Shown here: positions 6,194 through 38,065 of the stretch, in pieces
Position numbering within the stretch: position 1 is the stretch's first letter
Layout of the letters: every line of letters begins with the position of its first letter
DNA from: Ruegeria denitrificans
GTDB taxonomy: Bacteria; Pseudomonadota; Alphaproteobacteria; Rhodobacterales; Rhodobacteraceae
DNA length: 64,000 bases
Direction: 5' to 3'
NCBI RefSeq assembly: GCF_001458295.1
Contig: NZ_CYUD01000010.1
Coordinates: forward strand, 124,001-188,000
The notes under the pieces: generated by a model
Told to the model about the DNA's origin: nothing
The model's database searches: none
The model's input: the letters and a program-made list of their open reading frames with translations, nothing else
Program-made: the position numbers and the translations under genes

Positions 6194-7159
6194 TCAGCCC
6201 CAAAGTTCCGCCTTCGGCGGGTGCACTCCGGCATCATCAAAATTCAGCGGGTTGTCGCGGTCTTCGGCCAACAGAAGCGGGCCGTCAAGGTCCGTTACCA
6301 TCGCACCCTGCGCCAGAAGGGTCGCAGGAGCCATCGCCAAAGAACTGCCAACCATGCAGCCAACCATCACACGATAGCCTTCGGCTAGCGCCTGTTCACG
6401 TAGAGCCAGCGCCTCGGTCAGGCCGCCGGTCTTGTCTAGCTTGATGTTGACCACGTCATACTTGCCTTTCATCGCAGGCAGGCTGCTGCGGTCGTGGCAG
6501 GATTCATCAGCACATACCGGCACCGGGCGATCCATCCCGATCAGCGCGTCATCTTCCCCAGCGGGCAGAGGTTGTTCGACCAGCGCAACACCCAACCGCA
6601 CCAGATGCGGTGCCAGATCGGCATATACGTCTGCCGACCAGCCCTCATTGGCGTCGACGATGATCTTGGCGTTAGGCGCACCAGCGCGCACGGCTTCCAG
6701 ACGGGGCATGTCGTCTGGCGTGCCCAGCTTGATCTTCAACAACGGCCGGTATGAATTCTCGGCCGCCTGTGTCTGCATCTTTTTCGGCGTGTCCAGCGAC
6801 AAGGTGTATGCGGTGATCTCTGGGCCGGGCGCGGGCAGTCCGGCCAGCTCCCATGCACGTTTTCCGGCGCGCTTCGCCTCAAGATCCCACAGCGCACAAT
6901 CCACCGCGTTGCGGGCTGCGCCAGCAGACAGCAAATTCATCAACTGTGTACGATCAAACGTGTCCGGAAGGCCGGCGATCTCGGCCTCGACCGACTCCAA
7001 TGTCTCATTATACCGCGCATAGGGCACGCATTCGCCCCAGCCCTGATGCGCGCCATCTGACACGCGTACGGTCAGCACATTCGCTTCGGTCCGCGACCCG
7101 CGCGAGATCGTAAAGACCTGCGCCAGTCGAAATACATCACGAGAGACGTCAATCTGCAC
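6194..7159 (-). CDS. dgcA: Dipeptide epimerase-like enolase, probable N-acetyl-D-glutamate racemase DgcA
   Basis: 321 residues of the muconate-lactonizing/enolase superfamily. Visible are the catalytic KxK (LLKIKLGTPDD), metal ligands in IIVDANEGW, VALVEQPLP and VPVCADES, and the opposite lysine in VVNIKLDKTGG, which is the Lys-Asp-Glu-Asp-Lys set of L-Ala-D/L-Glu epimerases. The placement directly after a DUF1611 gene matches the described DgcN-DgcA route: DgcN acetylates D-glutamate and DgcA epimerises N-acetyl-D-glutamate to the L form, which feeds L-glutamate or arginine metabolism. The enzyme is full length. The start at 7159 (MQIDVSRDVFRL) follows a plausible AGGAG. Confidence 0.9.
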   Translation of the reverse strand: MQIDVSRDVFRLAQVFTISRGSRTEANVLTVRVSDGAHQGWGECVPYARYNETLESVEAEIAGLPDTFDRTQLMNLLSAGAARNAVDCALWDLEAKRAGKRAWELAGLPAPGPEITAYTLSLDTPKKMQTQAAENSYRPLLKIKLGTPDDMPRLEAVRAGAPNAKIIVDANEGWSADVYADLAPHLVRLGVALVEQPLPAGEDDALIGMDRPVPVCADESCHDRSSLPAMKGKYDVVNIKLDKTGGLTEALALREQALAEGYRVMVGCMVGSSLAMAPATLLAQGAMVTDLDGPLLLAEDRDNPLNFDDAGVHPPKAELWG

Positions 7160-7222
7160 GCACCCGCTCCTTTATCTATTCGAAGTTTCCCCGCCAGAGG
7201 GTTCTCTGACGGGGTCCTTTGA

Positions 7223-33954: not shown

Positions 33955-34659
33955 ATGACAGTAGAAAAAGTAGCTCTGATCACAGCGGGCGGCAGCGGCA
34001 TGGGTGCGGATGCAGCCCGCAAATTGGCAGAAGATGGGTTCAAAGTTGGCATCCTTTCCTCGTCCGGCAAGGGCGAGGCGCTCGGCGGCGAACTTGGTGG
34101 CTTTGGCGTGACTGGCTCTAACCTTGATAGAGAAGCGCTGAACGCTTTGGTCGAGGGTGCGAAGGATCGTTGGGGCCGTATTGATGTCTTGGTGAACTCT
34201 GCTGGCCACGGACCGAAAGGACCGGTTCTCGAAATCAGCGACGACGATTGGCATCAAGGGATGGATGTCTACCTGATGAACGTGATCCGTCCGACAAGGC
34301 TTGTCACACCCTCAATGCAGGAGCACGGCGGCGGGGCGATCATCAATATCTCAACTTTTGCAGCATTCGAACCGGACCCACTCTTTCCAACGTCGGGGAT
34401 TTTCCGTGCTGGGCTTGCTGCATTCACGAAGCTTTATTCGGATAAATATGCGCCAGAAAACATTCGCATGAACAACGTCCTTCCGGGCTTCATAGACAGC
34501 CTGCCTAAAGCCGAAGACCGCAAAGCGCGTATTCCCATGGGACGTTACGGTTTCGCTTCAGAGGTGTCTTCTCTCATTTCGTGGCTCGCCTCGGAAGATG
34601 GCGGGTACATGACGGGACAAAACCTGCGTATAGACGGGGGGCTGACCCGTGCCGTCTGA
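33955..34659 (+). CDS. SDR-fold protein with atypical active site
   Basis: 234 residues. The Rossmann glycine motif is present in variant form (TAGGSGMGADAARKL), as are NSAGHGP (NAG variant) and the C-terminal MTGQNLRIDGGLTR. In the catalytic region, where SDRs carry YxxxK, the sequence reads FPTSGIFRAGLAAFTK, so the canonical Tyr and Lys align to Ser and Arg. It may be a non-classical SDR or a non-catalytic NAD(P)-binding protein. The gene diverges from a LysR gene and overlaps the next small gene by 11 bp. Confidence 0.88.
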   Translation: MTVEKVALITAGGSGMGADAARKLAEDGFKVGILSSSGKGEALGGELGGFGVTGSNLDREALNALVEGAKDRWGRIDVLVNSAGHGPKGPVLEISDDDWHQGMDVYLMNVIRPTRLVTPSMQEHGGGAIINISTFAAFEPDPLFPTSGIFRAGLAAFTKLYSDKYAPENIRMNNVLPGFIDSLPKAEDRKARIPMGRYGFASEVSSLISWLASEDGGYMTGQNLRIDGGLTRAV

Positions 34660-34900
34660 TACCTTGGTCCTTGTATCACCGCGCGAACGGCTTGTATTCG
34701 CGGTCAAGTGGGGCGCATCCGCCGTTCAGATCATAGGATACACCGCGACGGGGTTTGGCTGGACCCCTTGGAACCTCTACCTGTTTCTTGTCGGTGTTGT
34801 GGGGTGGTTCGCTGTCGGCGCGCTATGGAGTGATAAGGCGCTCATGCTTGTCCACCTTGTCGCGTTAGGCGCAATGATTACCGGTATGGTAAGCGGCTGA
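34649..34900 (+). CDS. Small membrane protein co-encoded with the SDR
   Basis: 83 residues from a GTG at 34649, overlapping the SDR stop by 11 bp. Three hydrophobic segments are visible (about 18-35, 42-60, 65-82), with the conserved-looking ALWSDKALMLVHLVAL. It resembles short Rhodobacteraceae membrane proteins listed as DUF6552; this is unverified. Translational overlap suggests a linked role with the SDR, but no function is known. Confidence 0.65.
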   Translation: MPSDTLVLVSPRERLVFAVKWGASAVQIIGYTATGFGWTPWNLYLFLVGVVGWFAVGALWSDKALMLVHLVALGAMITGMVSG

Positions 34901-35267: not shown

Positions 35268-35505
35268 GAGAGCGTGAGAAACTCCCAGAGACACTGATCT
35301 TCATCCTGGAGAGTGATCACCCAGCAGTCACCAAACTAGACCGACTTGCGCTCTATGGCTCACCTCGTAAAAATCCGCAGCCAGCTTGGCACAGTAGGCG
35401 CAAACCTAACGATCTTGGTGTTAAGCCGCAATTGTGAGACCTTCTATCGGGAGAAGAACTGTACGGCGTTGTCACTGGCGCTCCCATGCAGTAGCGTGCA
35501 GCACC

Positions 35506-35871
35506 ATGGTCATCCGGCGATACTCACTTATGCTGTTGATTAGCCTTCTGGTCATTCTGACCGGCATTGGTGGTGTTGCTCACGCGTTGTCAAATGGTTG
35601 CGTAGGCCTTCATTGTGAAGATCATATGCAACCTGCTGAACACTCTGCATTAGCAACGAGCGGCAGTGACGTCTCGACTCCAAGTCATCATCATGACCCG
35701 GAGAGTTCAGGAGCACAAAAGTGCGATCCCTTTGTTTGCCAAACAATTGTATTGCTCCCCCAGAACAGCGAAGCCGCGCAAGGTCAACGTGATATTGAAC
35801 CAGAGTTCCAGATTAGAGCTCAAGCCAAGCTGAATGAACCAGATAGCCCTTACAGGCCCCCTGACCTTTGA
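35506..35871 (+). CDS. Secreted His/Cys-containing protein preceding the copper genes
   Basis: 121 residues from the ATG at 35506. A signal peptide or single membrane helix (LMLLISLLVILTGIGGVAHA) is followed by a mature part with four cysteines and a HHH cluster, for example GLHCEDHMQPAEH and PSHHHDPES, then KCDPFVCQTIVLL and the end DSPYRPPDL. It resembles the small proteins next to copper genes in related bacteria (DUF2946-like), but the family is not certain. Metal binding in the periplasm is inferred from the residues and context. It is the first gene of the cassette. Confidence 0.6.
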   Translation: MVIRRYSLMLLISLLVILTGIGGVAHALSNGCVGLHCEDHMQPAEHSALATSGSDVSTPSHHHDPESSGAQKCDPFVCQTIVLLPQNSEAAQGQRDIEPEFQIRAQAKLNEPDSPYRPPDL

Positions 35872-35967
35872 AGCCGCTTAAATTTTTGCGGACGTAAGCG
35901 ACCAGCACAGGCGGCTGATCGCGATGTGCCGCAGCATTACCAGCTTCCAAAATGTCAGGACCAATCT

Positions 35968-36399
35968 ATGAAAAAAAGTTACTTACTAATTGGCGTATGC
36001 ACCGTCGCTACTGTCGCCGCTTTCATAACTCTTCGGCCCGGTTCAATCCAAGAGGCCGCACCACGGGAGGCACTTGAAGGCGACGCTATGGTCGCAATTC
36101 AGATGCCGCCCATTGAGGGTAATGCCGCAATCGGACAGCGTGTCTTTGAGGTCTCCTGCGCCTCTTGCCACGGTGTCAATGCGGTCGGTGTAGAAGGCGC
36201 AGGACCGCCTCTGATCCACAAAATATACGAACCCAGCCACCACGCTGATGAAGCCTTTCAGAGGGCGGTTTCACAAGGTGTAAGAAGCCATCATTGGCAG
36301 TTTGGCGACATGCCGCCCGCGGAAGGTTTGACGCGAGGTGACGTTGCTATGGTGATCGCTTACATTCGTGAAATCCAACGTGCCAACGGGATACCTTGA
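35968..36399 (+). CDS. Membrane-anchored or secreted cytochrome c
   Basis: 143 residues from the ATG at 35968. An N-terminal helix (KKSYLLIGVCTVATVAAFIT) acts as signal or anchor. One haem c site, CASCH, lies in RVFEVSCASCHGVNAVGVEG, and the distal methionine is probably in FGDMPPAEG. The short class I cytochrome fold is complete. It ends 10 bp before copC on the same strand. It likely carries electrons in the periplasm in the copper cassette; its partner is unknown. Confidence 0.88.
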   Translation: MKKSYLLIGVCTVATVAAFITLRPGSIQEAAPREALEGDAMVAIQMPPIEGNAAIGQRVFEVSCASCHGVNAVGVEGAGPPLIHKIYEPSHHADEAFQRAVSQGVRSHHWQFGDMPPAEGLTRGDVAMVIAYIREIQRANGIP

Positions 36400-36409
36400 G
36401 GACAACACC

Positions 36410-36751
36410 ATGAAAAAGATCATAACGCTCGCACTCATGGCTGCTCTTCCCAGCGTCGTACTTGCGCATTCCAAGGTCGAAGAAACAACCCCTGCTGACG
36501 GAACCACAATAACCGCTGCACCCGCTGAAATTAGCCTCAACTTCTCTAAGGACATCCGGCTGACACGGATAGAAATGGCCCATGAAGAACACTCGGCAGT
36601 AAGCTTGGATTTGGGCGACCATAAAAGTTTTGGTCAGGAGTTCACGATCCCACTGCCGAGCAATGGAACGGGCACCTATGTCATCGAATGGCGTGGCTTA
36701 GGTGAAGACGGCCATGCGATGCAGGGCGAGTTTTCCTTTACCGTGGAATGA
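36410..36751 (+). CDS. copC: Copper resistance protein CopC
   Basis: 113 residues. The signal peptide ends VVLA, so the mature protein starts with HSKVEETTPADG. The N-terminal histidine is the hallmark Cu(II) ligand of CopC. A second histidine, in EDGHAMQGEFSFTVE, and an acidic residue complete the site. The fold is the usual seven-stranded beta-barrel (PF04234). It binds copper in the periplasm and hands it to CopD. It overlaps copD by 4 bp (ATGA). Confidence 0.93.
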   Translation: MKKIITLALMAALPSVVLAHSKVEETTPADGTTITAAPAEISLNFSKDIRLTRIEMAHEEHSAVSLDLGDHKSFGQEFTIPLPSNGTGTYVIEWRGLGEDGHAMQGEFSFTVE

Positions 36752-37620
36752 GCATGCCAGACATTTGGGGTATTGCCGCAATCCTCGCAAAGCTAGGGCT
36801 CTACATCGGCTTTGCGGGCTCCACCGGGCTTATAATTATTAGTTGCCTCTATTCCGGCTTTGTCGCACCGATTAACCACGTGATGAAGCGCCAAGCTAGG
36901 GCCTTGGCGTGCCTTGCTCTCGCCGCAACAGTAGTTGGCTTCATGCTTCGTGGAGCCGCCTTAACGGGCGGGGTTGATGGCATGGTCGATGCAGAGATGC
37001 TTGGTCTACTTTGGCAGACATCCGTGGGCGACGCACTTGTTAAACGCCTTATAGGTGCAGTATTGATCCTTGTAGGGCTTTCTGTTTCTTGCTTTGGGCT
37101 ATGGATCGCGCTGCTGGGTGGCACAGTGGCTCTATGGTCTTTTGCGCAGATCGGTCACGTGCCAGAACTGGAGAGCTTTAGTGTCCAACTATTGCTCCTA
37201 TTGCACCTGCTATGTGTAGCCTTCTGGGTGGGCATCTTTAGCCCGCTGCGGGGTTTGGCTCTCATGCCTGAACACCTTAAAAATGCTGCTGAATTAGGTC
37301 ATAGGTTTGGGCAAACTGCTGCATTGGTTGTGCCGACTTTAATCGGTGCGAGCCTCTGGATGGCTTGGTTGCTTGTCGGCAATCTCCATGGGCTCTTGTT
37401 CTCTGGCTACGGGCAGGCACTGTTGTTCAAAGTGTTTCTTGTGTCGCTGCTGATGATCCTCGCTGCTGCGAACAAGCTCCGATTTGTTCCGGCTATGCAA
37501 AATGGAGAGGCAAAGGCAGCGCAACACCTAGCTCGATCCATCGAGATTGAGGCAATAATCGTATTAGTTGTGCTGGCGACCACGGCGACACTCACGAGCG
37601 TTCTAACGCTTCCGAATTAA
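36748..37620 (+). CDS. copD: Copper resistance protein CopD
   Basis: 290 residues with about eight hydrophobic helices. The C-terminal segment from LMPEHLKNAAELGHRFGQTAA matches the CopD domain (PF05425). Inner-membrane CopD moves copper from CopC towards the cytoplasm. The start overlaps the copC stop (ATGA), or the ATG 6 nt later may be used. It is the fourth gene of a five-gene cassette that lacks CopA-, CopB- and CopRS-type genes, which favours uptake or haem-copper enzyme supply rather than resistance (inference). Confidence 0.92.
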   Translation: MSMPDIWGIAAILAKLGLYIGFAGSTGLIIISCLYSGFVAPINHVMKRQARALACLALAATVVGFMLRGAALTGGVDGMVDAEMLGLLWQTSVGDALVKRLIGAVLILVGLSVSCFGLWIALLGGTVALWSFAQIGHVPELESFSVQLLLLLHLLCVAFWVGIFSPLRGLALMPEHLKNAAELGHRFGQTAALVVPTLIGASLWMAWLLVGNLHGLLFSGYGQALLFKVFLVSLLMILAAANKLRFVPAMQNGEAKAAQHLARSIEIEAIIVLVVLATTATLTSVLTLPN

Positions 37621-37630
37621 GGTAGTAGAG

Positions 37631-38065
37631 ATGAGCAAACACCTACGTGCACTGGCTATATGCAGCATTGGCACCAGCGTCGCTGCAGATCATGAGTTGA
37701 CAGATAGAGACCTTGCGAATGGGCAAGAACTCTACGCAGTGCACTGTGCTTCATGCCATGGAGTTGATCTGGAAGGCCAACCCAACTGGCAAGCACCCGA
37801 TGATGACGGAGTGTTACCTGCACCACCACATGACGTGACAGGGCACACATGGCACCACGATAACCAGCTACTCTTCGAATACACCAAACTAGGTGGCGCA
37901 GACACATTGGAAGCACGCGGTATTAAAGACTTCAACAGTGGCATGCCGGGCTTTAAGGGCATCCTGACTAACGAAGAAATATGGGACGTGCTGGCCTACA
38001 TACGCTCCACTTGGCCAGACGATGTTCAGCAAATGCAGGCCAGTCGCAACCCTCCACACCAGTAA
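37631..38065 (+). CDS. Secreted cytochrome c, last gene of the copper cassette
   Basis: 144 residues. A short, weakly hydrophobic N-terminus (KHLRALAICSIGTSVAA) serves as signal. The haem site CASCH is in YAVHCASCHGVDLEGQPNW, with several HH/HxH residues in the middle (PPHDVTGHTWHHD), and the likely axial Met is in NSGMPGFKG. It is a single-haem class I cytochrome. It lies 10 bp after copD. Its histidine-rich loop suggests possible copper contact (inference). Confidence 0.88.
   Translation: MSKHLRALAICSIGTSVAADHELTDRDLANGQELYAVHCASCHGVDLEGQPNWQAPDDDGVLPAPPHDVTGHTWHHDNQLLFEYTKLGGADTLEARGIKDFNSGMPGFKGILTNEEIWDVLAYIRSTWPDDVQQMQASRNPPHQ

Follow-up and report, generated by a model that had tools for sequence, protein, structure and literature searches.

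A copper operon of Ruegeria denitrificans encoding CopC, CopD and two c-type cytochromes is probably headed by a leader peptide of the CutF/CruR type

In two described copper systems, CutF of Rhodobacter capsulatus (PMC9973294, PMC8456105) and CruR of Bordetella pertussis (PMC9426467), a Cys motif together with a proline-rich end controls the next gene, and copper lowers the expression of the CruR operon. CutF-like proteins were filtered for a length of <150 aa, PP in the last 15 residues and a Sec signal peptide, in a survey of 5,334 proteins that may include the leaders considered here (PMC9973294). CopC is listed among the genes in operons with CruR homologues (PMC9426467). In the article text covered, no description of the operon presented below was found.

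The window, by which we mean the whole stretch of 64,000 nucleotides that was analysed, holds five genes on the + strand at 35506-38065, an extent that an initial annotation had given correctly. In this order, they are the leader, cytA, copC, copD and cytB, where 'leader', cytA and cytB are working names of the present analysis. The leader ORF (35506..35871, +) encodes a Pfam-less, His-rich protein of 121 aa with four Cys residues, which looks exported and ends in EPDSPYRPPDL. Both cytA (35968..36399, +) and cytB (37631..38065, +) encode single-haem c-type cytochromes with one CXXCH motif each and Pfam cytochrome c matches of 49.6 and 55.7 bits, respectively, which bears out the initial claim that two such cytochromes flank CopC-CopD. 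The genes for CopC (36410..36751, +; PF04234, 83.7 bits) and the copper membrane protein CopD (36748..37620, +; PF05425, 67.9 bits) overlap by 4 nt, and both proteins score above the Pfam cut-offs; under the NCBIfam equivalog models, CopC reached 64.2 and CopD 99.5 bits, below the cut-offs of 95 and 195. The ORF list and Pfam revealed no multicopper oxidase, CopB or two-component gene within the cassette, again as initially annotated. The cassette resembles copABCD and pcoABCD in its CopC and CopD, but differs from them in lacking the CopA oxidase, CopB and CopRS and in having two added cytochromes. A plain copABCD operon was rejected because the CopA oxidase and CopB are not among the five genes. 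Directly upstream of the cassette lies a gene for a DUF6552 protein (34649-34900), with no evident link to it.

CopD gave a single match in its own genome, and its nearest named relatives belong to Ruegeria, with at most 87% identity. In the family, CopD-like matches (E <= 1e-10) were present in 49 of 295 genomes. From a scan of named genomes we kept 80 of 135 confirmed CopD loci, some genomes giving two or three loci. The fullest order around these matches was leader-cytA-copC-copD-MCO-cytB, where MCO is a multicopper oxidase. All six genes were found in 24 of the 80 loci, exactly the five genes of the window in 16, and the six-gene set minus a detected leader in 11; the other 29 loci had other or partial gene sets, some of them at contig ends. 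Since 16 loci have the five-gene order and 24 have it with the oxidase added, this order is not due to chance, and the five-gene cassette is confirmed as a recurring unit. Furthermore, the dN/dS values of the window genes, determined against up to seven Ruegeria relatives, ranged from 0.08 to 0.69 and were mostly 0.1-0.3.

The first gene had been annotated as encoding a His/Cys-rich secreted protein. Its place and composition were verified, but the role implied by that description missed what the conserved features point to, namely a copper leader peptide. Of 44 aligned leaders, many of which come from close relatives, 41 or more retain each of C32, C37, H40, C73, C78, P112, R117, P118 and P119, and in all 44 a PP (P118-P119 of 121 in the window) lies in the last 15 residues. 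The distance from the second Cys of the pair (C78) to the RPP is exactly 38 residues in 47 of 48 loci, as counted on 48 of 49 rows with 44 distinct sequences, the 5-residue L082 fragment being left out. The stretch from C37 to C73 spans 28-40 residues, 35 in 34 of 47 loci. In two leaders the RPP is replaced by KPP, and one leader (L134) is devoid of the second Cys of the pair. A positive start, a hydrophobic run and a conserved A25-H26-A27, as read from the sequence, give the N-terminus a signal-peptide-like appearance. The gap between leader and cytA measures 96 nt in the window; 41 of 47 loci fall in the range of 94-100 nt, and three of the six other lengths were mismeasured from partial matches. 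No Pfam family matched the leader at E <= 0.1, DUF2946 included, and the CXXC and RAPP motifs do not occur in it, their counterparts in the window being CDPFVC and RPPD. Membership of DUF2946 was rejected on these grounds. In the locus L085 of Ruegeria atlantica HKCCD9103 (6758-7200), the leader is extended to 130 aa with its PP no longer near the end, the gap is 70 nt and no cytB was found, which suggests that the leader signal is decaying there along with the operon.

With its 121 aa, the window leader falls within the CutF-like length filter of <150 aa, and the locus shares with cutF-cutO-cutG of R. capsulatus a small leader that looks exported, a Cys pair, a proline-rich end and, as judged from relatives, a structured gap (PMC9973294, PMC8456105). 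Likewise, periplasmic copper proteins are encoded downstream, and relatives of the window have a multicopper oxidase in the operon. Unlike CutF, which has CxxxC and EGPPPRL, the leaders described here have a CxxxxC pair, preceded in the window by C32/C37, and RPPD or RPPN; moreover, the first downstream gene is a cytochrome gene followed by copC-copD, and the window is without an oxidase. The resemblance to CruR of B. pertussis (PMC9426467) lies in the constant spacing between a Cys motif and an Arg/Pro motif close to the end, 45 residues to RAPP in CruR versus 38 to RPP here, and in the position of both at the head of an operon. In contrast to CruR, the window leader has no DUF2946 match and neither CXXC nor RAPP, and it is followed by cytochrome genes. 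Lacking that match and having neither CxxxC nor RAPP, the leader should be said to work like CruR or CutF rather than to be either of them. On the strength of these sequence features, the first gene probably encodes a copper leader peptide of the CutF/CruR type, and it is this peptide that would sense copper.

Ahead of the leader we identified a predicted sigma-70-type promoter (35469..35497, +) consisting of TTGTCA, a 17-bp spacer and TAGCGT, its end lying 8 nt upstream of the leader's start codon. The pattern TTGnnn-N17-TAnnnn, with 6-8 nt between its end and the start codon, was present in 32 of 36 non-redundant loci, in a raw pattern count, and when spacers of 16-20 were tried, 17 alone gave a -10 element starting with TA. 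CueR-type promoters have spacers of 19-20 bp, and a CueR-type promoter was thus rejected for the window operon. As the promoter ends so close to the start codon, the mRNA is probably leaderless, the transcript beginning at or beside the leader start codon. Visual inspection of the 60 nt preceding the promoter revealed a near-palindrome in the window and part of one in L082, but none in the other sequences compared.

Among the 80 CopD loci, 9 have a divergent CueR gene and a Grx-MauE gene with no detected leader, 3 have both leader and divergent CueR, and 23 have neither; leader absence in the CueR loci was judged by tblastn alone and may reflect divergence. This distribution fits, without proving, control after transcription start. 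In several loci (e.g. L050, 11578-12821, and L069, 1913-4087) cytA is preceded by a gene for a glutaredoxin-MauE fusion together with a divergent CueR gene. The L069 contig of 6690 bases carries CueR, Grx-MauE, cytA and cytB, and neither copCD nor an oxidase was found on it. In 27 of the 80 loci (e.g. L045, 7417-8594), moreover, a Crp/Fnr-type gene and a gene for a 175-aa protein without a Pfam match at E <= 0.01 lie side by side no more than 6 kb downstream of copD; neither was found beside the window cassette.

The gap between leader and cytA coincides with a candidate intergenic RNA element (35869..35970, +) that shows covariation in 21 relatives. In the window, a closing helix is predicted to form between 35870-35874, overlapping the leader stop codon, and 35943-35947; the cytA Shine-Dalgarno AGGA lies at 35957-35960. 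De-duplication left 34 gaps, which were divided into groups A3 (21), A2 (six, including the window) and A4 (five, plus L115), with L123 and L135 in none; pairs were counted on A3 and, by RNAalifold, on A2, while A4 was aligned only. In the 21 relatives of A3, the closing helix, formed by the leader stop region and the segment before the cytA Shine-Dalgarno, was supported together with two hairpins. Indeed, 92.2% of the cells were paired and 10 of 24 pairs showed both-sided changes, 8 of the 10 sitting in the hairpins, compared with 1-4 in slid controls and with 500 shuffles, none of which scored as high. In group A2, both-sided change was seen in 1 of 24 pairs.

Searching 49 chosen sources (893,586 bases) with the model R1 resulted in 12 matches at E <= 1, representing nine distinct loci and all located in the leader-cytA gap. 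The training set included three of these loci, L111, L112 and L136 (= L048). The six outside it were L042 (112 bits), L046 (31.7), L121 (= L043, 27.2) and L126 (25.5) and, more weakly, L083 (= L036, 21.6, E 0.29) and L087 (20.3, E 0.53). At this threshold the 49-source search missed the other leader loci, the window among them, and among 150 of 1455 candidates scored in the window's own genome there was no match at E <= 1. In a 901-base search of the window, R1 scored 15.8 bits with its best hit. The fold of the window gap is unexceptional (z -0.57), being matched by 63 of 200 shuffles. The closing-helix arms paired at 4.71 of 6, versus 3.55 (highest 3.92) for shuffled gap interiors; with arms swapped between sequences the mean was 4.53 and the highest 4.73, and the observed pairing thus lay within the shuffles of this second test. 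When the window's gap is folded, the cytA Shine-Dalgarno stays unpaired, and shielding of the kind known from the cutF-cutO loop is not evident there. An alternative helix between the closing helix's 3' arm and the Shine-Dalgarno showed zero both-sided changes and, by eye, fails in the window's group. A known Rfam element was rejected, since none of 4227 families matched 35300-36200 up to E 1. Altogether, an RNA element is weakly supported for the window's own gap.

Conceivably, the first gene could encode an ordinary secreted copper-binding protein, a chaperone or scavenger, in a simple copper-tolerance operon under a distant regulator such as CueR. The Cys and His residues conserved in the leader and the unremarkable fold of the window's own gap would suit such a protein, as would the CueR gene in the genome, which adjoins a Cu P-type ATPase gene ~52 kb upstream of the cassette on the same contig. 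However, the fixed 38-residue distance in 47 of 48 loci with its near-terminal RPP, the near-fixed gap length with covarying structure in relatives, and the 17-bp promoter spacer in 32 of 36 loci, as opposed to 19-20 bp, make this explanation unlikely. We therefore prefer to regard the first gene as a nascent-peptide leader.

In CopC, H20, D100 and H102, which we take to be the Cu(II) site, are invariant (77/77), and H20 is the first residue of the predicted mature protein. CytA has a CASCH haem motif, a conserved M115 and five invariant extra non-haem His residues (84, 91, 92, 108 and 109; 60/60), and a structure model of middling confidence (pLDDT 70) predicts an N-terminal anchor-like helix. 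CytB has a CASCH haem motif, M105 and an invariant PPHDxxGHTWHH motif (56/56), and a PDB fold search with it gave weak matches alone, the best being cytochrome cL (E 3e-3). By inference only, the His clusters of both cytochromes are candidate copper sites.

The initial annotation proposed that periplasmic electron transfer may be coupled to copper handling, with the two cytochromes changing the copper redox state specifically for transport by CopD. A copper operon with periplasmic electron carriers is supported, and in favour of the specific coupling, cytA stands upstream of copC in 64 of 80 CopD loci and cytB abuts copD in the loci without oxidase. Nevertheless, among 103 cytB matches with E <= 1e-40 in 295 family genomes, for which oxidase linkage is a lower bound, cytB follows an oxidase gene in at least 69 and is near copD in 19. 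It stands after an oxidase without copD in at least 55, with both in at least 14, with copD only in 5 (window included) and with neither in 29, among the matches listed. In addition, plasmid pP88_b of Phaeobacter inhibens carries a cytochrome-oxidase-cytochrome module near a heavy-metal P-type ATPase, in which relatives of both cytochromes flank the multicopper oxidase; unlike in the window, no copC or copD is annotated in this stretch, and genes for a response regulator and an ATP-binding protein lie upstream. The cytochromes are thus largely conserved apart from copCD. Since both often occur without copCD, mostly beside an oxidase, a coupling specific to CopD is not supported, and we consider this model quite improbable.

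The oxidase of the relatives, of ~439 aa, matches three multicopper-oxidase Pfam domains, and its best match in the PDB, and hence the nearest solved structure, is 4f7k, 'Laccase' (E 1.3e-252), presumably the Lac15 laccase from a marine metagenome. Its gene follows copD in the relatives, an arrangement that differs from copABCD and pcoABCD, and it is absent from the CopD-cytB junction of the window (37621..37630, +) and of the same-genus relative L036. The window's genome contains two other multicopper oxidases, 49% and 36% identical to a relative's oxidase, both without cytochrome neighbours. In the same-genus genome G043, a second copper island (L067, 4389-12647) comprises genes for a cytA-like protein, a His-rich small protein, cytochrome-like proteins, an oxidase, a cytB-like protein, a DsbA-like protein, a P-type ATPase and CueR, the unlabelled genes being named by eye.

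On a tree of 81 CopD rows, built by a quick method and with 33 of its 76 inner branches open, the label 'MCO with cytB' needs at least 13 changes, 7 of them forced by starred branches, and among loci with cytB, presence or absence of the MCO needs 10; such counts have no power to separate gain from loss, which remnants can do. Comparing L117 with the oxidase-bearing L115, we found 39/42 matching nt from the copD end into the oxidase start, a 30-nt inner oxidase piece (26/30) and a stretch of 75 nt that runs from the end of the oxidase into cytB (62/75), the oxidase middle being gone. Weak traces of the oxidase start alone occur in L112 (35/43) and L093 (26/34). The remnants in relatives and the patchy occurrence of the MCO across the CopD tree point to its repeated loss from the operon. 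In the window's own clade, just a few bases after copD resemble an oxidase-bearing junction, so that loss is inferred there. In the window, then, the oxidase gene seems to have dropped out of a conserved copper operon, and the lack of an oxidase, initially seen as a feature of its design, looks secondary. That the cassette is a decaying remnant of an oxidase operon with little function left is very doubtful: the oxidase is gone and some Ruegeria relatives are without cytA (L081, L082), cytB (L085) or most genes (L095), but the five window genes are intact with dN/dS well below 1, and 16 of 80 loci keep the five-gene order without the oxidase.

We consider it likely, then, that the operon responds to copper and is controlled by a leader that acts as a nascent peptide. 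Transcription from a constitutive-type promoter would give rise to a probably leaderless mRNA, and its first ORF would be translated into an exported Cys/His peptide with RPP at its end. Contact of the nascent peptide with copper would change ribosome arrest at the RPP, the changed arrest would shift the structured RNA of 96 nt that adjoins the following Shine-Dalgarno, and this shift, whichever its sign, would set the expression of cytA-copC-copD-cytB. CopC would bind Cu(II), CopD would transport copper through the inner membrane, and electron transfer to or from copper may be the task of the two His-rich cytochromes. The cytochromes of many relatives would work together with the Lac15-type multicopper oxidase, the gene for which was apparently lost in the window's lineage. 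A more speculative idea, and one we hold to be unlikely, is that the cytochromes form an oxygen-independent cuprous oxidase in which Cu(I) at the invariant His residues is oxidised by haem and the electrons pass to the respiratory chain, a route under the control of a leader peptide that would sense periplasmic copper during its own synthesis. If this were true, the multicopper oxidase would be dispensable, which would explain its repeated loss.

The related operons with and without the oxidase provide sets for a direct test of the job of the cytochromes. If the proposed reading is true, Lac15-type laccases would gain a natural gene context, and nascent-peptide copper sensing would be extended to a cytochrome-CopC-CopD operon of many marine Rhodobacteraceae.
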